From the NCBI GenBank assembly GCA_016194635.1, contig JACQBC010000030.1, positions 248,001 to 312,000 on the forward strand: a stretch of 64,000 bases of DNA. The letters are read 5' to 3'. Made by a program: the position numbers and the translations under genes. This stretch comes from Gammaproteobacteria bacterium. GTDB lineage: Bacteria; Pseudomonadota; Gammaproteobacteria; UBA6429; Thiohalophilaceae. This document shows, in pieces, positions 4,316-31,060 of the stretch; positions within the stretch are counted from its first letter, which is position 1, and each line of letters begins with the position of its first letter. The notes under the pieces were generated by a model. That model had not been told where the DNA came from, made no database searches, and was given only the letters and a program-made list of their open reading frames with translations.

Positions 4316-7300
4316 CTATTCAGCGCCTCCGCTCGAGTTCGTCTGTGGTGTTGTCTTCTTAGTGGTTTCGGTAATCAGTGGATGTTCCCAACTGCCTTTG
4401 ACCGAATAACGTTTCGCCAAGGAATCATCGATCTTTTTACCCATGAACCGGTCAAAGAAAAATGCCCAACCGCAGGTAGCCCCGCCTGATAACAAACAAC
4501 CGATCATCGTCAGCGAGCTGGTTACCCGTGGTACCGCGATAACCTCTAGATCGTAATCACGCGCCGCAAAACCGGTACGTCCACGGATCGCGACCACCGC
4601 CGCCGGGCTATTGATATTGAGGTCATTGGTAATGGCATTGCCATTGGTAATCTCAAAACTACCGCGGATCTCGTCAAAACTCATACCACGGCTGAATTCT
4701 TTAAAGTTGAGGAACAGGTGGCGCGGTAATTCAGTAAGACTAAGCAAGCCAAGTAGCCGACCGGCACCGGGTTCTACTTCGGCGATCGTACCATCGGTAA
4801 TCACCACCCCGACGCTGCCATTGAGTTTGGCAAAATCAAAACGGTTTGGGCTATCCGCCCAATTCACTTGCAGGTGCGCCTGTGCCTTGCCATGCCGAAT
4901 CACATGCGTGAAACCCAGGCGCTGCAACATATTACCCACATTAGGACTGTCCAGATCAAAACGCATATTGGTCAGGTGTTTCATTTTGCGGTAATACCAA
5001 CTGCCGCTGCCGGTAATCGTCATATCGTCGGAACTCAAATTGAACTTATCAAAACGCACTCCGTCTTTATCGCGTTGCATGGCGATATCCAATTGCCCCA
5101 GGCGCATGTCATCCACGATAAATTCACGTATCATCCCGTTGATCAGCGGCATTTGATCCGGAGTAGGCGCTGGCCCATCCGCGCTGTGGCTGGAAGTGTG
5201 CACGGAAAAATGATCCATATCTAAATGGATCGGTAAGTCCAGGCGGGGTAATCCCACAGGGCGATCTTGGCCCTGGTTAGGGTTCACTAGCTTGGCCTTC
5301 CATTGATCAATATTGAAGTTTTCTAACCGGCCACCGATCTCCACGACCTCCTCGCTGGGCAGTTCAACCGCTTTACCCGAAAAATTAATCGCTGCCTTGC
5401 GCAGGCCAAACCCCGCCGAAGAAGCCGTATCGAATAAAAATTGCGCGCGCACACTGCTATCCACCGCCACGCCCAGACGTAATAAATTATCCCCCGGAAA
5501 TTGCAGTTCCACATGGAAATAACGCCGATCAGAGTTGAGCTTGCCCAGGGGCGCGGGTAAATCTACCGCCACGCCCAATAATTCTGTATCAAAACTCATA
5601 TTCCCCGGCACCGGATGACCGTCCAGGTGGTACCCAAAATTCACCGTACCACTCCAGGGTGTGCGGCCGTTAAAATCAGCGGCGAGGGAGGGCGCCAGCC
5701 GTTGCAACAGCGTGTGTAGATCCATCTCACCCCGCAGGTTGATCGATATTTGTTGGCTGTCGCGTATATTTTTAGTGGCCACCGACAGCTGGGTGGGATT
5801 ACCAAACAGCTCGGCACGTATTTGGCTAGCCTCCACCCCGGCGGTCGAATACTGCAATTCACCGTTGAGTTTCCCCACCGTCAATTTTCCTTGAAAACTC
5901 TTCAAACTGCTGTCTTCAAAACTTACCTTACCGTGATAATCCAAGGGATATTGTTTCTCCAACCGTTCTACCAAGGGCACTTGTAAACTCAAACTGGCGG
6001 TAGTATTGCCGGCAATTTTAGAACCCGCGTAAAAATCCTTGGCCTGGGCCGCAATGCCGCTGTCCACCAAGAAATGCACCGCGTCTTGGGTACTGCCGGT
6101 AAATTCGCCCTTTACCTGTAAGACAGGATTTTTAAAGTTGGCAATGGTAGCGTTAACATTGCTTAGTGTACCCTCGAACAAAGCCGCCTGCGTGGCGGAT
6201 AATGCCATCCCGGTTCCGCTAAAAAGTCCGTCGACCCGCAACTGGGTTAGGTGCGGCCATGCGGGTTTATAATTGAGTTCCATCGCGTGCGCACTGAAAC
6301 TAACCACGAATTTTCCCGCGCCGTTATTAAATGGAAAATCCGCCAGTCGACCCTGTAACAATATCGCGCCGGTATCTACCTGGCCGGCGACAATGCCTTT
6401 GTCTAACCATTGAAGCAGGGATCGATCCATGATCGCCACGGGATAATATTTACCCGCGGCGGCGGCATTTAACTTGCTGACGTGCGCTTGCATATCCAGA
6501 TAGGTGGAAGCCGGCCCATTAGGTATAACGGCATAGAGCCCCGCCTCGGCGGCAAGATCGGTATTGCCCACGCGTAACTGTGGAACATCGACATATACAT
6601 TCAAACCGTCGCGCCACCAACTCGCAGCGGCGTGGAGCTGATCTAATTCAATAGGGGCGCGAAATAATCCGTTAAAATCCCAGTTCGATTTAGTACTATC
6701 CAGCGTCACCACTCCACGCTTAGAATCAAACCACACCGCCCCATTCACCCCGGTAATACCCGGTACACCTTGCCAGGGCTTTGCTGAAATATTGGCAAAT
6801 TGCGTACTGAGGGTAAAATCCAACGCGGTCAGGGATTCGGGATGAAACTGTAAAAACAAATCGTGTAGATCACCGTGCGGCTGCATGTGGGTCAAAATAG
6901 CGTCGGATTTCTTGTCGAGCAATTTGACCAGATTCAATACATTATGCAAGTCACGTAATTTAATCAGGCTGGTGTGTACCGTCAACATGCCTTGCGGTAA
7001 AGATTGATAATCTAACGAAAATGCCGTTGCCGGCCAAACCGCCTCGGCCTGTTGATAACGAAAATCATCTACCCGCAGCTGCCATCCCTGCGGGCGCTGA
7101 CTCCAGTCAAAATTACCCGACAGCAGTTTTAGTACAAAGGGTTTATCTTGATGCCCAGCAGTAAGCCGTACATCGCTGATCGACAGCGTGCCGCTGAGCG
7201 ACGCCAGTCCTTGCGGCTTCCACCCGCCCCAAATATAAAAATCCATCAACCCTTCGTGCAAGGTTAGGTTTAGTAACGTAAGCTGCCTGCCCCAGTTATT

Positions 7301-17232: not shown

Positions 17233-17360
17233 GGGTTAAACCCCGTCGCGTAACTCACACGTCGGTATGACACGCATAAATACGTCCCTGTAGCTCGGTG
17301 GCGGCATCCCTGCCGCCAACGGTCATACCGACGTGTGAGTTACGCGACGGGGTTTAACCC
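17233..17360. repeat. Palindromic intergenic element A (39-bp perfect arms)
   Basis: Arms 17233-17271 and 17322-17360 are perfect reverse complements over 39 bp. They enclose a 50-base core (17272-17321) that contains an inner hairpin, GGCGGCA-tccc-TGCCGCC. The core resembles those of the elements at 34020, 51647 and 51998, but the arms are unrelated in sequence between copies. The right arm is the last coding part and stop of lnt; the left arm is its inverted copy. The core is in the plus orientation. As RNA it would form a very strong hairpin after lnt. Confidence 0.9.
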
Positions 17361-21252: not shown

Positions 21253-22596
21253 TTAGCCGAGGAGCACGGCGTCAGGGCTGGAGAGCACGCCACGCAGGGA
21301 GTTAGGTAGGGCTTCAGTTATGGTTAGATCCACCAGTTGGCCTGTGAGATTAGACGGTCCCGTAAAGTTTACCACACGATTATTAGCCGTGCGTCCCGCC
21401 CACTGCCCCGGATCCTTGCGGGAGGGACCGGTGGCCAAGACAGGTTGTAGTGTGCCTACCATGGCCTTGGAAATCGCATGGGCTTGGCGGGTTAACTGCC
21501 CCTGTAATATCGCAAGCCGTTGTTTTTTATGATCTAAACAAACATCGTCGGGCAGTTCGGCCGCCGGGGTACCCGGCCGGGCACTGTATATAAAGCTATA
21601 GGAATAGTCGAATCCCAGCTCAATCGCCACCGCCAAGGTAGCCTGAAAATCATCCTCAGACTCGCCTGGAAAGCCGATAATGAAGTCCGAGGAGAGGCTG
21701 AGATCGGGACGAACCCGCCGCAACCGCTGAATAATGGATTTATAATACGCCACGGTATAACCGCGTTTCATCAGGGCCAGAATCCGATCCGAACCGCTTT
21801 GGATGGGCAGGTGGAGATGGCTCACCAGTTTAGGCACCTGGGCGTAAACATCGATCAAGCCCTGGCTCATCTCCAGGGGATGGGAGGTGGTAAAACGGAT
21901 CCGCTCGATGGTATCGATTTCAGCGATATAGGTCAGCAGTAAGGCCAGATCGGCCGTGCTCCCGTCCACCATCTCACCCCGATAAGCGTTGACGTTTTGA
22001 CCCAGCAGGTTTACCTCCCGCACCCCCTGCTCAGCCAGCTGTACGATCTCGGCAATCACGTCATCGAAGGGCCGGCTTACCTCGGCGCCACGGGTATAGG
22101 GCACCACGCAGAAGCTACAATATTTGCTACAACCCTCCATAATAGAAACGAAGGCGGTTGGCCCCTCCGCCCGAGGTTCAGGCAAACGATCAAACTTTTC
22201 GATCTCGGGGAAACTGATGTCGATGGCCGGACGGCGTTGAACGCGGCTGGCCTCGATCATTTGGGGCAGACGGTGCAAGGTCTGCGGGCCAAACACCACA
22301 TCGACATAAGGAGCCCGTGAGAGGATCGCCGCCCCTTCCTGGCTGGCCACACACCCGCCCACTCCGATCACCACCCCCGGTCGTTTATCTTTTAGGGACT
22401 TCCACCTTCCCAGCAGTGAAAAAACCTTTTCCTGGGCCTTTTCCCGCACCGAACAGGTGTTGAGCAGTAATACATCAGCTTCTTCAGGGGTCGGTGCCAA
22501 CTCCAAGCCGTGCGAAGCCCGGAGCACATCCGCCATCTTGGCGCTGTCGTACTCGTTCATCTGGCAACCGAAGGTCTTGATGAATAGTTTTTTCAT
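21253..22596 (-). CDS. miaB: tRNA-2-methylthio-N6-isopentenyladenosine synthase MiaB
   Basis: About 447 residues. Radical-SAM cysteines lie in [16 protein letters not shown]; the N-terminal MTTase domain starts [21 protein letters not shown]; a TRAM domain forms the C terminus. MiaB adds the methylthio group to A37 of tRNAs. The start is set at MKKLF, which matches the family; the frame stays open 60 codons upstream, but that extension would run into the tracrRNA gene and has no family match. Confidence 0.95.
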
Positions 22597-22757: not shown

Positions 22758-22787
22758 AAAACAAAAGAGGCCGCATATAGCGACCTC
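22758..22787 (-). terminator. Intrinsic terminator of the tracrRNA
   Basis: On the minus strand GAGGTCGC, loop of 5, GCGGCCTC (one G-U pair) is followed by TTTTGTTTT. This 8-bp hairpin plus T-run is a standard Rho-independent terminator. It lies where a tracrRNA should end and separates it from miaB downstream. Confidence 0.85.
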
Positions 22788-22847
22788 ACATTTTGTGCAT
22801 CTTTCAGCTTGTTAGCGGACAGAGCCCATATCTCAATAAAGTATATG
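22758..22847 (-). ncRNA. tracrRNA of the type II-C CRISPR system
   Basis: The stretch at about 22812-22847 is an anti-repeat. Read on the minus strand it pairs with about 30 of the 36 repeat bases, with four small mismatches or bulges and a few G-U pairs; the core ATTGAGATATG matches the repeat exactly. Downstream come a small CACA-AAA-TGTG hairpin (nexus position) and an intrinsic terminator. The expected RNA is about 90 nt. It is transcribed away from cas9 from a strong promoter. It pairs with crRNA, recruits RNase III and forms the Cas9 guide scaffold. Exact 5' and 3' ends are inferred. Confidence 0.88.
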
Positions 22848-22853
22848 GGTTCT

Positions 22854-22882
22854 ATACTATTAAGCGCTAGGACAGATGTCAA
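22854..22882 (-). promoter_or_regulatory. Sigma-70-type promoter of tracrRNA
   Basis: On the minus strand a perfect -35 TTGACA (22877-22882) is followed after exactly 17 bases by TAGTAT (22854-22859, 4/6 to TATAAT). The predicted start is near 22846-22848, right at the beginning of the anti-repeat. A plus-strand TATACT (22853-22858) overlaps the same -10 and may serve cas9, though no good plus -35 is seen. Confidence 0.75.
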
Positions 22883-22897: not shown

Positions 22898-25800
22898 ATG
22901 TTACCCAAAATGCGGTATCGCTTGGCACTTGATCTCGGTTCAACTTCCATTGGTTGGTGTCTTATTCGATTGAACTCCCAGCAGGAGCCTATCGCCATTA
23001 TCAGAATGGGGGTACGAATTTTTTCTGATGGACGTAACCCAAAGGATGGCACTTCATTGGCGGTCACACGCCGCAATGCACGTCAGATGCGCCGTCGACG
23101 AGATCGGTTACTCAAACGCAAGCAACGTATGTTAGAGATACTTACGAAGCTTGGTTTCTTTCCTGAGGATGAAAACCTGCGCCGCAATCTAGTCAACCTT
23201 GATCCATATATTTTACGCAAGAAAGGCTTATATGAACCCCTAACAGGGCCTGAATTTGCCCGCGCCCTGTTTCACATCAATCAGCGGCGTGGTTTTAAAA
23301 GTAATCGCAAAACTGATAAAAAAGATAATGATAGTGGCGCTTTGAAAAAAGCGATCAAAGATTTACGCGAGAAACTGTCTCAGGCACAGTGCCAGACTCT
23401 CGGCGAGTGGCTGGCCGATCGACACGAACGAGGTGAAAGCGTTCGCGCACGCCTGCGTGGCAAAACACAAAAGGACAAGGCTTACGATTTTTATGTCGAC
23501 CGAGCCATGATCGAGCATGAAGTTGACACCCTCTGGGCTAAACAAAACAATTTTAATCCGTTACTTTTTAACAATACCACCCGTGATGAACTAAAAGATG
23601 TTCTACTTCATCAAAGAGATCTGAAACCCGTCAAGCCAGGCCGTTGCACACTACTGCCGGATGAAGAACGCGCTCCCTTAGCCCTGCCAAGTACACAACG
23701 GTTTCGCATCTATCAGGAAGTAAACAATTTGCGGATACTCGACTCAGAAATGCGCGAGCAAGCGTTGTCGAAAGAACAACGCGATCAAATCGCGGCATTG
23801 TTGGAACAGCAACGCCAAGTAACTTTTACGGCGATCCGCAAGAAACTCAAACTTTCAGCAACAGTCACATTCAATTTACAGGATGTGAAACGTGATTTTC
23901 TCAAAGGAAACATAACCTCAGCGATATTAGCTAATGATAATGCCTTAGGTAACCACTGGTATGATCTTCCCAAAAGTCTGCAGGATAAGTGTGTCGAATT
24001 GCTGTTGAATGAACCCAGTGAAGAGAAACTCATCGAGTGGTTAATATCCCATACGACCGCAGATGAAGCAACGGCAAGACGGATCGCAAACATTAATCTG
24101 CCGGAAGGATATGGGAGTTTGAGCGCAGTCGCACTGCAAAAAATACTACCGGAATTAATGAAAGATGTTATTACCTACGCCGAAGCCGTTAAACGCGCGG
24201 GTTTTGTGAGTCACAGCATACTGTCCCATGCCGAAGCGACAGGCGAAATTATGGAAACTTTGCCCTATTATGCTATTCCGTTGCGTCGTCATGTTGCATT
24301 TGCTAAGGACAATCCGCGCAATAACGAAGAACGCCACGGAAAAATCGCAAATCCGACCGTACATATCGGTTTAAATGAACTCCGAAAAGTAGTCAATGCG
24401 CTGATCAAGCGTTATGGGCATCCCAGTGAAATAATCGTTGAAGTTGCCAAAGATTTGAAGGTTAGCAAAAAACTACGGGACGAAATACAGAAAGAACAAT
24501 CAGAAAATCAAAAGCGCAACCTGCTTTGGCTAGAGGATGCCTGCCGGGTATTACAAACCAACCCGGAACATCTCGATAAAAGTAAACGTCGTGAGCTGAT
24601 TCAAAAGATGCAGCTATGGCATGAATTAAATCCGAAAAACAACCTCGAACGCTGTTGCCCCTACACCGGAGAACGAATTGGTATTGAGCGGTTACTTTCG
24701 AGCGAAGTCGAAATCGAACACATCCTGCCTTACTCCAAAACATTGGATGATAGTCTTAATAATAAAACCGTATCGCTACGCCGCGCCAACCGTGACAAAG
24801 GCAACCAAACACCGTATGAAGCCTTTGGGCGGCAAGCGATACCCGGTTATGACTACCATGACATACTGCAGCGAGCCACGCTCATGCACAGAGAAAAAGC
24901 CAAGCGGTTCGCACCGGACGGGTATCAACGGTGGCTAAAGGAGGACAAAGACTTTCTTGCCCGCGCCCTCACCGATACCGCCTACTTGTCACGTATTGCC
25001 AAAGAGTATCTTGCTTTGATTTGCCCGCCTAACAAGGTACGCGCTATCCCTGGTCGCATGACCGCCTTATTGCGTGGAAAATTCGGGCTGAATCAAATGC
25101 TATCTGGCAACGAACACAAAAATCGAAACGACCATCGCCATCATGCCCTGGATGCGGCTGTGATTGGTGTCACCGATCAAGGTCTCCTGCAACGTTTTGC
25201 GAAAGCCAGCGCGAGCGCAAAAGAAAGGCACCTCGACCGACTTGTGGAAGAAATGCCATTGCCGTGGCCGAATTATCGTGAACATGTTGAACGAGCTCTG
25301 AGTCATATCATCGTGAGCCATAAACCTGATCATGGTTTTGAGGGTTCCATGTTTAAGGAAACGGCTTATGGAATTAAGCCTGACGGTTCAATAATTCAAA
25401 AGAAAAAAGAAGATGCCGAAAAAGATAGAAGTGTTAAATACATCGTACCTATCTACGAGCCCAATCAAGCAGCCCGGCACGGTACAGCAACTACCGGAGG
25501 TCCACGCCCCTACAAAGGATACGCACCAGACGGTAATTACTGCCTAGAAATAGTGGAAAACGAAACTGGAAACTGGGAAATGGAAACAATTCCGGTATTC
25601 AAGGCATACCGACTTGCACGTAATATAGGCTATGGCAAAATTTATCAAGCGCAAGTTCTTCAACAAATGATTAACACTAAGCTTTCTGAAATTCCCGGCA
25701 ATCTGATTATGAAACTCATGCCTGGTGATATTATCAGGCTTAACTACAAAGGCACGAAAAACCAGCTGCTATGTGTAGTAAAAATGAGTGTGGATGGCGG

Positions 25801-26044
25801 TGCAACATTCACTAACCTAAGTGAAGCTAATATCAGCGGCAGATATGAAGCCAGAAGAAAAGCTCGTAACCGAATTAAAAAGGAAGGCAAGACAATTGAC
25901 CAACTTGATGCAATTGAGCAAACTGCATTGAAAGATGTATTTGTTTTATCCCAGATCGGTGTAACAGAACTAAAAATGGGAAAAGCTCGCAAAATAACAG
26001 TATCTCCCATCGGTGAATTACACGACTCAGGCTTCAAGGGCTGA
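22898..26044 (+). CDS. cas9: CRISPR-associated endonuclease Cas9 (type II-C)
   Basis: A 1048-residue compact Cas9. RuvC-I has Asp12 (LALDLGSTSIGW); an Arg-rich bridge helix follows (RRNARQMRRRRDRLLKRKQR, ~59-78). RuvC-II has Glu515 (EIIVEVAKDL); HNH has His608 (EVEIEHILPYSKTLDD); RuvC-III has His749 and Asp752 (DHRHHALDAAVIG). The C-terminal ~200 residues form the PAM-interacting region. Length and motif spacing fit the Neisseria/Geobacillus-like II-C branch. The start is fixed by an AGGAG 6 bases upstream. All catalytic residues are present, so the enzyme should cut both strands. cas1 follows at 5 bases. Confidence 0.97.
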   Translation: MLPKMRYRLALDLGSTSIGWCLIRLNSQQEPIAIIRMGVRIFSDGRNPKDGTSLAVTRRNARQMRRRRDRLLKRKQRMLEILTKLGFFPEDENLRRNLVNLDPYILRKKGLYEPLTGPEFARALFHINQRRGFKSNRKTDKKDNDSGALKKAIKDLREKLSQAQCQTLGEWLADRHERGESVRARLRGKTQKDKAYDFYVDRAMIEHEVDTLWAKQNNFNPLLFNNTTRDELKDVLLHQRDLKPVKPGRCTLLPDEERAPLALPSTQRFRIYQEVNNLRILDSEMREQALSKEQRDQIAALLEQQRQVTFTAIRKKLKLSATVTFNLQDVKRDFLKGNITSAILANDNALGNHWYDLPKSLQDKCVELLLNEPSEEKLIEWLISHTTADEATARRIANINLPEGYGSLSAVALQKILPELMKDVITYAEAVKRAGFVSHSILSHAEATGEIMETLPYYAIPLRRHVAFAKDNPRNNEERHGKIANPTVHIGLNELRKVVNALIKRYGHPSEIIVEVAKDLKVSKKLRDEIQKEQSENQKRNLLWLEDACRVLQTNPEHLDKSKRRELIQKMQLWHELNPKNNLERCCPYTGERIGIERLLSSEVEIEHILPYSKTLDDSLNNKTVSLRRANRDKGNQTPYEAFGRQAIPGYDYHDILQRATLMHREKAKRFAPDGYQRWLKEDKDFLARALTDTAYLSRIAKEYLALICPPNKVRAIPGRMTALLRGKFGLNQMLSGNEHKNRNDHRHHALDAAVIGVTDQGLLQRFAKASASAKERHLDRLVEEMPLPWPNYREHVERALSHIIVSHKPDHGFEGSMFKETAYGIKPDGSIIQKKKEDAEKDRSVKYIVPIYEPNQAARHGTATTGGPRPYKGYAPDGNYCLEIVENETGNWEMETIPVFKAYRLARNIGYGKIYQAQVLQQMINTKLSEIPGNLIMKLMPGDIIRLNYKGTKNQLLCVVKMSVDGGATFTNLSEANISGRYEARRKARNRIKKEGKTIDQLDAIEQTALKDVFVLSQIGVTELKMGKARKITVSPIGELHDSGFKG

Positions 26045-26049
26045 CCTCT

Positions 26050-26979
26050 ATGATCGGCCGCATTGTCGAAGTGGCCGATGACCGGAGACATTTATTTGTC
26101 TCCAGGGGTTTCATGGTGGTGCAAGAAACCGAAGGCGAACGCAAGGAGCTCGGGCAAGTCCCTCTGGATGATATTGCCGCGGTTATCGCCCATGCACATG
26201 GTTTGAGTTACACCAATAACCTGCTGGTTGCCTTGGCGGAGCGTGGTGCACCCTTTGTATTGTGCGCAGCTAACCATAACGTGATCGGCATGCTTTGGCC
26301 GGTCGATGGGAATCACCAACAAGCCAAACGATTTGATGCACAACTTGCCGCTGGCCAACCCATGCATAAACGCCTGTGGGCAGAGGTGGTGCGTTGCAAA
26401 CTACAACAACAAGCAGCGGCATTAGAAGCGGTGGGTGCTCCCACTGCGCCACTTGCCGCACTGACGAAAAAAGTTCGTTCAGGCGATCCCGATAATCTGG
26501 AAGCCCAAGGTGCACGCCGTTATTGGAACCTTTTATTTGGTGATGATTTTCGCCGCGATCAAAACAGCGGTGGACTGAATGCCATGCTCAACTATGGCTA
26601 TACGGTGTTACGTGCAGCTACTGCACGCGCCGTGGTTGCTGCTGGCCTGCATCCCACGCTTGGGCTACATCATTCCAACGAAGGTAATCCAATGAGGTTG
26701 GTTGACGATTTAATGGAACCCTTTCGTCCCATCATCGATTTACATGTTTGGCAATTACAACGCCTCGGTGAAACCGAAATTACACAGGATACCAAGCGCT
26801 CGTTGGTTCGTACTTTATATAACGACATGCAAAGCAGCTCTGGCGCAACTCCGGTAATGGTCTGTATGCAACGACTGGCCGTTTCGTTGGCTCAGGTCTA
26901 TCTTGGTGAGCGCGATAAACTTGATCTACCCCTGCCAGGATTGCCCTTATCCATAGCGGCAAGCCTAACCGATGAATGA
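26050..26979 (+). CDS. cas1: CRISPR integrase Cas1 (type II)
   Basis: A 309-residue type II Cas1. The metal-binding residues appear in NLEAQGARRYWNLLFG (Glu), LGLHHSNEGNPMRLVDDLMEPFRP (His, then Asp/Glu). With Cas2 it integrates new spacers at the leader end of the array. It lies 5 bases after cas9 and 6 bases before cas2, so the three form one operon. No csn2 or cas4 is present, which defines subtype II-C. Confidence 0.96.
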   Translation: MIGRIVEVADDRRHLFVSRGFMVVQETEGERKELGQVPLDDIAAVIAHAHGLSYTNNLLVALAERGAPFVLCAANHNVIGMLWPVDGNHQQAKRFDAQLAAGQPMHKRLWAEVVRCKLQQQAAALEAVGAPTAPLAALTKKVRSGDPDNLEAQGARRYWNLLFGDDFRRDQNSGGLNAMLNYGYTVLRAATARAVVAAGLHPTLGLHHSNEGNPMRLVDDLMEPFRPIIDLHVWQLQRLGETEITQDTKRSLVRTLYNDMQSSSGATPVMVCMQRLAVSLAQVYLGERDKLDLPLPGLPLSIAASLTDE

Positions 26980-26985
26980 TTTGCC

Positions 26986-27312
26986 ATGCTCAGTGGTTAC
27001 CGTCTGATGTGGGTCGCTATTATGTTCGATCTACCGGTTGTGGAGAAAAAGGAACGCAAAGCAGCTACTGACTTTCGTAAGACATTACTGGATATGGGTT
27101 TCGAGATGGCGCAATTTTCCGTCTACATGCGATTTTGCACCAGCCAGACTCAAATCGATACCTACTGTAAACGTGTCGAAGTGGCCTTGCCAGAAGGTGG
27201 AAAAGTCAATATCCTGACTTTTACGGACAAACAATATGAACGAATCATTTCCTACCGAGGCAAGGCGAAACAGGCCGCAAAAAAATCACCAAGCCAATTT
27301 GAATTATTCTAG
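26986..27312 (+). CDS. cas2: CRISPR adaptation protein Cas2
   Basis: A 108-residue Cas2 with the beta1 Asp in WVAIMFDLPV and the conserved FSVYMRFC segment of type II Cas2. It forms the dimeric core of the Cas1-Cas2 integrase. The C terminus is Lys-rich (KQAAKKSPSQFELF). The stop lies 69 bases before the first repeat, so the leader starts directly after it. Confidence 0.95.
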   Translation: MLSGYRLMWVAIMFDLPVVEKKERKAATDFRKTLLDMGFEMAQFSVYMRFCTSQTQIDTYCKRVEVALPEGGKVNILTFTDKQYERIISYRGKAKQAAKKSPSQFELF

Positions 27313-27381: not shown

Positions 27382-29331
27382 AGTATACATCATTGAGATA
27401 TGAGCACTGTCCGGAACGGCCAGCTTGTCCTCAACATAGGCCGCGAAAGTATACATCATTGAGATATGAGCACTGTCCGGAACGGAAAAAACTATCAGTG
27501 GCGACGAGCTGCGAGTATACATCATTGAGATATGAGCACTGTCCGGAACACGTTGGTTACAACATCGGTTTGATCAACAAGTATACATCATTGAGATATG
27601 AGCACTGTCCGGAACACGTAGCTCAAGTGCTGGGGCAGGATATCTAGTATACATCATTGAGATATGAGCACTGTCCGGAACTAACAGGTGTACGCACTGT
27701 AACACTAGGCTAGTATACATCATTGAGATATGAGCACTGTCCGGAACTATTGTATATACTCATGGCATGTATAGGAGAGTATACATCATTGAGATATGAG
27801 CACTGTCCGGAACTGCCATATACTTTACTCTCCACTTGTTTAAAGTATACATCATTGAGATATGAGCACTGTCCGGAACTAAATCACCTCTCTCATCTTT
27901 TGCATTACCAGTATACATCATTGAGATATGAGCACTGTCCGGAACCGTAAACAAATTGTTCAAAACTTTTATAGGAGTATACATCATTGAGATATGAGCA
28001 CTGTCCGGAACCGGACCGGATTGCAATAATAAAATCTGCAGAGTATACATCATTGAGATATGAGCACTGTCCGGAACACAGGAATATTTAACAACGCCAA
28101 TGTATCAAGTATACATCATTGAGATATGAGCACTGTCCGGAACCCATATGATGCGTTTCTAGAGTTTGGGCTAAGTATACATCATTGAGATATGAGCACT
28201 GTCCGGAACAGCCTAAGCCATGTCGAGAAGTTTAATAGAAGTATACATCATTGAGATATGAGCACTGTCCGGAACCATTCCATGCTTCTCATGCCCATAC
28301 CATGCAGTATACATCATTGAGATATGAGCACTGTCCGGAACTCCGTCAAGGGATATATTTTTTTGCCTAATAGTATACATCATTGAGATATGAGCACTGT
28401 CCGGAACTGGACCCAGAAGCACACGCAGCGGTTGCGCAGTATACATCATTGAGATATGAGCACTGTCCGGAACAACCGTGGTTATTGGGAAGAATGTCTA
28501 GTGAGTATACATCATTGAGATATGAGCACTGTCCGGAACTCGCTGAACTTGATCTTGCTGGTATTGCCCAGTATACATCATTGAGATATGAGCACTGTCC
28601 GGAACCTGTGATTTATCCGGCACCGCACGCGCCGAAGTATACATCATTGAGATATGAGCACTGTCCGGAACGTCACGGTTCCGGTGATGATGACGGTTCC
28701 GAGTATACATCATTGAGATATGAGCACTGTCCGGAACTAACCGGTGTACGCACTGTAACACTGGGTTAGTATACATCATTGAGATATGAGCACTGTCCGG
28801 AACATAACGCGATGGTTTTTTACGATCGAATTTAGTATACATCATTGAGATATGAGCACTGTCCGGAACGGAAAATTCGCATCGCTGTATGATGCGGCGA
28901 GTATACATCATTGAGATATGAGCACTGTCCGGAACGTCGGCCGCCTCTCCCGCGCTAAAGATCGCAGTATACATCATTGAGATATGAGCACTGTCCGGAA
29001 CGCTGGCTCGAGCATCGGCCAACCGCGCAATAGTATACATCATTGAGATATGAGCACTGTCCGGAACCGCAGTATTCCAATCACGCGGCCGACGTCTAGT
29101 ATACATCATTGAGATATGAGCACTGTCCGGAACGGCGGCGATGAGGTGATCGCGTGGGCGCGCAGTATACATCATTGAGATATGAGCACTGTCCGGAACC
29201 ACTTCGTCAATCCCGGCGCTCACGGCATCAGTATACATCATTGAGATATGAGCACTGTCCGGAACATTTCCTCGACTTTGCTTTTGATATCAAACAGTAT
29301 ACATCATTGAGATATAAGCACTGTCCAGAAC
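27382..29331 (-). CRISPR. Type II-C CRISPR array, 30 repeats and 29 spacers
   Basis: A 36-bp repeat recurs with a strict 66-bp period, giving 30-bp spacers throughout; (29296-27382)/66 = 29 spacers. On plus the repeat begins AGTATACATCATTGAGATAT and ends GCACTGTCCGGAAC. The crRNA sense is inferred to be minus, where it begins GTTCCGGACAG like other type II repeats and pairs with the tracrRNA. The last repeat (29296-29331) has two substitutions (ATAAGC and CCAGAAC), marking the old end. In crRNA sense each repeat ends in TATACT, at the same place as the repeat-internal -10 box of Neisseria meningitidis. Spacers 5 and 21 are near-duplicates. Confidence 0.98.
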
Positions 29332-29699: not shown

Positions 29700-30473
29700 T
29701 TATATGGATTTATCAGGATCAATATCCGCGGCATGAACAACCGCAGGATCAGTGACACGCCATCGTTTTGTTAGAACATTATATGGTGCTGCCAACCCCG
29801 CATCTTCAAGACGTTTTGCGTTGGAATGGTAAACTACAACGCTGTATGATTTTGGAGTAACTGCACCAGAAAAATTTTTACCGTGGTCTGGATTTGGAAC
29901 GGTGATATGTTTGCTTGGGTCCCAATGATAATAGTCAAAAACTTCTGCTTCATAATTTACAAAAATAATTCGTAATTTATTAGAATTTGGAATAGCAACA
30001 CCCGTTACAATTGCGTAAGATTTTACATGAAAGCCGTGTAAAGAATATATGAGATCAATTTCTTCATTCGAACCTGTCAGTTGTTTGAGCACTGAAGCTT
30101 CGACCAAACTTTCGTATTCCAGGGAAAGTGGGCTCACCTTATTCCATTTTGGAGTGTAGGGAGGTTTGCCTTGAATGCGGGGTATAATTCCTAACCATGT
30201 GGGCAGCTTTCCAGTAATTTTACCTTTTTCTATAGTTAAGAAAACATTTCTATGATAGCGCAATACATCAAGTGTACCAGAATAGTACTTAAGATGATCG
30301 GGCGCATCGATAAGATAGGTGAAATTAGGGTTCCGGTTCTTCAACCACTGGCGCATCAACATGGCCGCTAGTGAAACTGGCACACTACCTTTAATAGAAT
30401 CAACGTGGTTCGCTAATCGCATATAGAAATCCGCGACTTGTTTGTTCGACAGTTTAGCCAACTCATCACTCAT
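29700..30473 (-). CDS. Uncharacterised protein next to the CRISPR array
   Basis: A 257-residue soluble protein I do not recognise with confidence. No signal peptide or membrane segment. Features: an N-terminal helical part (MSDELAKLSNKQVADFYMRL), an aromatic-rich centre (LIYSLHGFHVKSYAIVTGVA), a motif FDYYHWDPSKHITVPNPDHG and a C-terminal GLAAPYNVLTKRWRVTDP. The pattern resembles some DUF6402-type proteins linked to secreted effectors, but this is a guess. It lies 23 bases downstream of a membrane-anchored partner and is more AT-rich than the housekeeping genes, so it is probably accessory. Confidence 0.6.
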   Translation of the reverse strand: MSDELAKLSNKQVADFYMRLANHVDSIKGSVPVSLAAMLMRQWLKNRNPNFTYLIDAPDHLKYYSGTLDVLRYHRNVFLTIEKGKITGKLPTWLGIIPRIQGKPPYTPKWNKVSPLSLEYESLVEASVLKQLTGSNEEIDLIYSLHGFHVKSYAIVTGVAIPNSNKLRIIFVNYEAEVFDYYHWDPSKHITVPNPDHGKNFSGAVTPKSYSVVVYHSNAKRLEDAGLAAPYNVLTKRWRVTDPAVVHAADIDPDKSI

Positions 30474-30496
30474 AAATTTTCCTTGTGTTTAGTATT

Positions 30497-31060
30497 TTAT
30501 TTTGGTTTTTTAGCTCTAACAACACCCGGTGGAAGATCAAACTGCGCTATTAAAGCGCCTTCATCTAAAGTATCTTTATTTTGTTGAACGCGCCTAACCA
30601 GCACCTTGTTATTTTCACTTATTAGCCAATAAAATGATGTCCCACAAATAATTTTATCTAATTCTCTTTCCGTGCCTTCAAACACCGCGTTACCAGCACC
30701 AAAATCCTTGCACGACGCAATAGTCTGGCGTAATTCTTTATTTCCGTAACGAACCACAATTACTAAACCTACTTCCATACGTTGCAAGGACATTTGATCT
30801 CCTCCAGTATCAAATTCAAAATACGCTAACGCCTGCCCGGGAGGCAAAGATTCAGTTAATACAGATTCGATCGGCGCTATATCGAGCTTCTTAGGTTCCA
30901 CTGTATCTGACAATTCATAATGGAGATCGGCTAAGGTGCCCCCCTTTCGCGCAATTTTTTCAAATGGATCTTCATGGTGGAAGAATACCGCCAAGAATGC
31001 TACAACCGCTGTAATACCTAACAAAGCAACAATATAAATAATTTTCATTTTTTTGAGCAT
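30497..31060 (-). CDS. Uncharacterised single-pass membrane protein
   Basis: A 187-residue protein with an N-terminal membrane anchor (IIYIVALLGITAVVAFLAVFF) and a periplasmic domain of about 155 residues; no family recognised. Two cysteines (ASCKDFG and IICGTSF) could form a disulfide. An AGGGG sits 6 bases before the ATG. It is co-directional with the 257-residue gene 23 bases downstream, so the two probably form a two-gene unit. An effector with an immunity or delivery partner is possible but unproven. Confidence 0.65.
   Translation of the reverse strand: MLKKMKIIYIVALLGITAVVAFLAVFFHHEDPFEKIARKGGTLADLHYELSDTVEPKKLDIAPIESVLTESLPPGQALAYFEFDTGGDQMSLQRMEVGLVIVVRYGNKELRQTIASCKDFGAGNAVFEGTERELDKIICGTSFYWLISENNKVLVRRVQQNKDTLDEGALIAQFDLPPGVVRAKKPK

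Follow-up and report, generated by a model that had tools for sequence, protein, structure and literature searches.

A tracrRNA gene divergent from cas9 in a complete type II-C CRISPR-Cas locus of a gammaproteobacterium

Does the minus-strand element at positions 22882-22758, located between cas9 and miaB, encode the tracrRNA of the adjacent Cas9 system, and does anything set it apart from the tracrRNAs of related loci? We addressed this question in the window, i.e. the whole 64,000-nt stretch of gammaproteobacterial DNA that was analysed, and in loci of related Cas9 proteins. The element is almost certainly a real, ordinary tracrRNA gene of the type II-C Cas9 system: the expected parts are present, and the anti-repeat has co-evolved with the array repeat.

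The type II-C locus and its tracrRNA gene

The cas9 gene (22898-26044, plus strand) encodes a protein whose length of 1048 aa fits type II-C and which contains HNH and RuvC domains (TIGR01865, E 4e-188). It is contiguous with cas1 (26050-26979, plus strand; type II family TIGR03639), cas2 (26986-27312, plus strand; profile match) and a CRISPR array (27382-29331) in which 30 repeats (36 nt each) alternate with 29 spacers (30 nt each). It is the sole array in the genome with this repeat. No match to Csn2 or Cas4 was found among the ORFs neighbouring the cas9-cas1-cas2-array locus, which is a complete type II-C locus with its three cas genes and 30 repeats. Judging from the anti-repeat and from the TATACT motif at the repeat end, the crRNA sense of the array would be the minus strand. 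The terminal, oldest repeat (29296-29331, minus strand), at the array end far from cas2, is degenerate; its two substitutions fall within the first 16 nt when the repeat is read in crRNA sense, a pattern like that described for the extra repeats of II-C systems (PMC12080349). Comparison of the spacers with phage records gave no convincing match, and a search for relatives of the Cas9 among viral contigs found none. Two spacers (27682-27711 and 28738-28767) are nearly identical to each other (~27 of 30 bases), as if acquired from the same site in related phages. Beyond the array, two ORFs on the minus strand (257 and 187 aa; 29700-31060) are without a Pfam match above the cut-off. On the other side of the locus, homology to MiaB sets in at residue 63 of the ORF as called, which places the real miaB start near 22596.

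The tracrRNA gene is upstream of cas9 and divergent from it. Its -35 element TTGACA (22882-22877), identified by sequence inspection and a promoter scan, is separated by 17 nt from the -10 element TAGTAT (22859-22854). These are followed on the same strand by the anti-repeat (22845-22811), the tail AAGCTGAAAGATGCACAAAATGT (22810-22788), which is kept in homologous loci, an intrinsic terminator stem-loop GAGGTCGC-TATAT-GCGGCCTC (22787-22767) of eight pairs, one of them G-U, and directly after it the T-rich stretch TTTTGTTTT (22766-22758). The promoter, anti-repeat and terminator described earlier from the sequence were thus all recovered at these minus-strand positions. From the promoter and terminator positions, the predicted transcript would cover 22847-22758, with its 5′ end at about 22847-22846 and its 3′ end in the T tract. 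By itself the promoter scan is weak (one promoter found versus 0.7 expected). Of 69 distinct upstream regions, 51% had a best sigma-70-like match of at least 9 of 12 positions, versus 13% of shuffled sequences. A spacing of 35-38 nt between the end of the best -10 match and a conserved GCTAAC downstream of it is seen in 41 of the 69 distinct loci, and it is 37 nt in the window. It is this conserved position across relatives that makes the window promoter credible, and the fixed -10 distance supports a putative tracrRNA start near 22847-22846. That is, the element combines a promoter of its own with a conserved 3′ tail and a terminator, as is characteristic of tracrRNA genes.

The anti-repeat is made up of four paired blocks (22845-22841, 22839-22824, 22822-22816 and 22813-22811) and pairs with 31 of the 36 bases of the array repeat GTTCCGGACAGTGCTCATATCTCAATGATGTATACT, in agreement with the approximately 30 of 36 given in the preliminary description. 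The predicted duplex has an energy of -43.4 kcal/mol. When the 301-nt region upstream of cas9 was subjected to 400 mononucleotide shuffles and both strands were searched, the best duplexes had a mean of -21.9 (sd 2.6), and the most stable one reached -31.7. The observed duplex lies far beyond this range and the anti-repeat is therefore correct rather than a chance match. The runner-up minus-strand site in the window reached -31.0 (the plus-strand listing is filled by the array itself), and a pattern search found a single occurrence of the exact CGCTAACAAGCNG site in the genome. The anti-repeat is close to cas9, outside the array, and complementary to the array repeat, another mark of a tracrRNA.

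Conservation and covariation in related loci

Relatives of the Cas9 were drawn from the genomes of many proteobacteria, and 42 loci with a readable array repeat and tracr tail, the window included, were compared. In these 42 loci the anti-repeat is located upstream of cas9 on the opposite strand, and the tail GCTAACAAGCTGAAAGATGCACCAAATG is common to all of them and is followed by a GC-rich hairpin. The array repeats have the same orientation relative to cas9 in related loci. No recognisable tail motif was found in the stretch examined of each of four further loci (L029, L101, L102 and L124). In two loci (L033 and L051) an upstream plus-strand site outdoes the tracr gene in pairing with the repeat; in L033 this site is a stray, isolated and nearly intact CRISPR repeat about 690 nt upstream of cas9, far from the array.

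Covariation was analysed in a set of 27 distinct repeat/anti-repeat chimeras. Standard pairs occupied 84.8% of the cells, versus 76.6% when the sequences were shuffled and 33-37% when they were slid by 1-3 bases. The number of cells with changes on both sides was 83 versus 29 in shuffles, with 15 repeat/anti-repeat pairs changed on both sides and a covariation score of 0.251 versus 0.100 for shuffled and at most 0.059 for slid sequences. The shuffle leaves shared ancestry in place as a cause, although the slid control retains that ancestry. An independent count over repeat positions 5-30 in 41 loci gave 93.1% paired positions, versus 82.2% (sd 0.8) when the anti-repeats were dealt among loci. 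The anti-repeat of the window prefers its own repeat over the other 40 (-42.3 versus -34.0), and the window carries a compensated change, U22-A in place of C22-G. Anti-repeat and repeat have thus co-evolved, as expected of a tracrRNA. Together with the tail, promoter position and terminator conserved in relatives, this covariation bears out the initial proposal of a tracrRNA gene divergent from cas9. The co-evolving repeat/anti-repeat alignment of the clade can help in the design of a dual or single guide for the Cas9, for which the parts list (repeat, tracrRNA and orientation) is now complete.

The architecture of the window is already known, and the gene is a further example of a known tracrRNA family. 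For Bordetella pseudohinzii, whose cas9, cas1 and cas2 are homologous to those of Alicycliphilus denitrificans, a 2015 paper described a putative tracrRNA gene that lies upstream of cas9, points away from it and has a promoter and a terminator of its own (PMC4624362). These II-C systems share with the window the cas9-cas1-cas2 order, the divergent putative tracrRNA, its promoter and terminator, and a downstream array with 36-nt repeats and ~30-nt spacers (PMC4624362); they differ in host and sequence, the likeness being one of described architecture. Position, orientation, pairing pattern, terminator and the GCTAACAAGCTGAAAGATGCACCAAATG tail are also common to the window and the tracrRNAs of the II-C clade (Rhodoferax, Nitrosomonas, Undibacterium, Acidovorax, gammaproteobacterium HdN1 and others), whereas the window differs in having GCACAAAATG in the tail where GCACCAAATG is commoner, a G-U pair at repeat position 15, and a longer self-hairpin in the anti-repeat. 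The full length of the Rfam tracrRNA model RF02348 aligns at 22865-22762 on the minus strand, but with 17.4 bits, below the gathering score of 70, and the Rfam scan of the window gave no match at gathering level.

Duplex length and the origin of crRNAs

The pairing had been claimed to be longer than in most known tracrRNAs, a claim that the comparison does not uphold. Within the 42 loci of the clade (window included) the number of pairs ranges from 25 to 34 with a median of 29, as compared to 31 in the window, and in ten type II loci outside the clade, with Cas9 proteins ~32-47% identical over the matched part, the best anti-repeats, mostly at the 5′ end of cas9, form 31-35 pairs. Two further outside loci were left out, their best site abutting the array, and one further outside type II locus gave no convincing anti-repeat. 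In terms of net duplex energy (cofold minus free RNAs), the window is weaker than the clade median (-28.3 versus -34.4). Pairing over nearly the full length of the repeat is therefore usual in type II systems of such kind and no special trait.

Positions 31, 32, 34 and 36 of the repeat are invariant among 36 distinct repeats (TA-N-A-N-T, with C or A at position 35), although tracrRNA pairing at this repeat end is often lost; position 34, for instance, pairs in 6 of the 41 loci. This invariant motif, TANA(C/A)T, suggests selection for a -10 element, that is, for repeat-borne crRNA promoters. According to published reports, each repeat of a II-C array holds a promoter, and transcription runs toward the leader end (PMC12080349, PMC8092290); RNase-III-independent II-C systems are stated to exist (PMC4624362). 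The crRNAs of the window locus are probably started from such repeat-end promoters, and trimming by RNase III may therefore help without being essential. Given the -10 motif and the published II-C reports, neither an obligate RNase III step nor a long mature duplex is implied; RNase III cutting, wherever present, would shorten the duplex. The plus strand of the anti-repeat was also considered as a retained cas9 promoter with a repeat-borne -10 facing cas9, and was set aside: by eye, its hexamer in the window reads TATATG and is variable from one relative to the next.

Proposed function, rival readings and fused elements

By analogy with characterised type II systems, the gene's own promoter would drive synthesis of a tracrRNA of ~90 nt, in the direction away from cas9. 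The anti-repeat would bind each crRNA by pairing with its repeat part, and the conserved tail would be presented to Cas9, giving a dual guide RNA for cutting matching DNA; transcription, Cas9 loading and cleavage are all inferred from those systems.

Outside the window, three candidate fusions were noticed in relatives. In L051 (Curvibacter sp. CHRR-16; 5300-6010, minus strand) the anti-repeat is preceded on its own strand by a repeat-like GTTCCGGCCAGAGTGCATTTCC, which folds back on the anti-repeat, and the 11 bases directly before GTTCCGGCCAGAGTGCATTTCC (TGTGGTTCGTG) recur 58 nt upstream beside TATAAT. In L045 (Aquabacterium parvum; 5700-6010, minus strand) there is a more degenerate element, GTTCCGGCC, with a 10-base match 39 nt upstream; the repeat/anti-repeat pairing is not clear in its predicted fold. 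One genome (G698; locus L115, which is the same as L153) combines an ordinary tracrRNA with a second, compact element at a distance of about 1 kb (6160-6320 of L153, plus strand). This element is fused, carries a tail and a terminator of its own, and has a match of 9 bases ahead of TATAAT. Within the same regions, guide-end-anchored matches of these lengths (11, 10 and 9 bases) occurred at 1.2%, 1.4% and 6.8%, respectively, of the remaining positions. When 399 genomes of the family were searched by pattern, no further fusion cases emerged. The fused elements resemble by sequence the S. pyogenes tracr-L, which belongs to a II-A system (PMC11417352); their apparent target would be their own promoter, not the cas9 promoter. 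From these three cases, picked out after the fact, it is conceivable, and we hold it tentatively, that the tracrRNA family of the window has yielded natural single-guide RNAs in some relatives, with a repeat fused before the anti-repeat and 9-11 guide bases matching the upstream promoter. If so, type II-C would gain a self-regulating guide akin to the type II-A tracr-L, and the tracrRNA gene of the window would be the plain form.

Could the gene in the window have such a double role, that is, also repress the cas operon in a long or single-guide form, in the manner of the S. pyogenes tracr-L? The elements in L051, L045 and L115, with their fused repeat/anti-repeat and guide-like 3′ end recurring in the promoter, would be in line with this idea, but in the window the best repeat-like score on the upstream tracr strand is 7, compared to a shuffled maximum of 10, the upstream structure has z = 0.1, and the start site is only ~50 nt from the cas9 ATG, making this role very improbable. 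A natural single guide in the window was rejected as well, as the tracr strand has no repeat-like or anti-repeat-complementary sequence upstream. A regulatory switch is somewhat less improbable, although still unlikely: the anti-repeat self-hairpin CCCATAT...ATATGGG (22849-22825) could limit crRNA binding, and it would agree with the net duplex energy of -28.3, weaker than the clade median of -34.4, and with a 5-bp version being present in 7 of 69 loci, where 2.4 would be expected. This enrichment is, however, small and uncorrected for ancestry, and the likely start site at 22847-22846 cuts away part of the CCC arm.

The least probable reading, to which we give hardly any credence, is that of a CRISPR repeat left stranded and degenerate, a repeat-like remnant making no functional RNA. 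Its plus strand does resemble the array repeat, as that of any anti-repeat would, but compensatory changes in relatives keep the match, and promoter position, tail and terminator are conserved together as a unit. An ordinary tracrRNA thus remains the reading that we prefer.

Elsewhere in the window, a perfect 39-nt inverted repeat with 50 nt between its arms (17233-17360) is situated at the end of an lnt-like gene, upstream of a leucyl-tRNA synthetase gene. As about 40 other sites in the genome match the central part of this inverted repeat, it is probably a dispersed REP-like palindromic element, in this case with unusually long arms.
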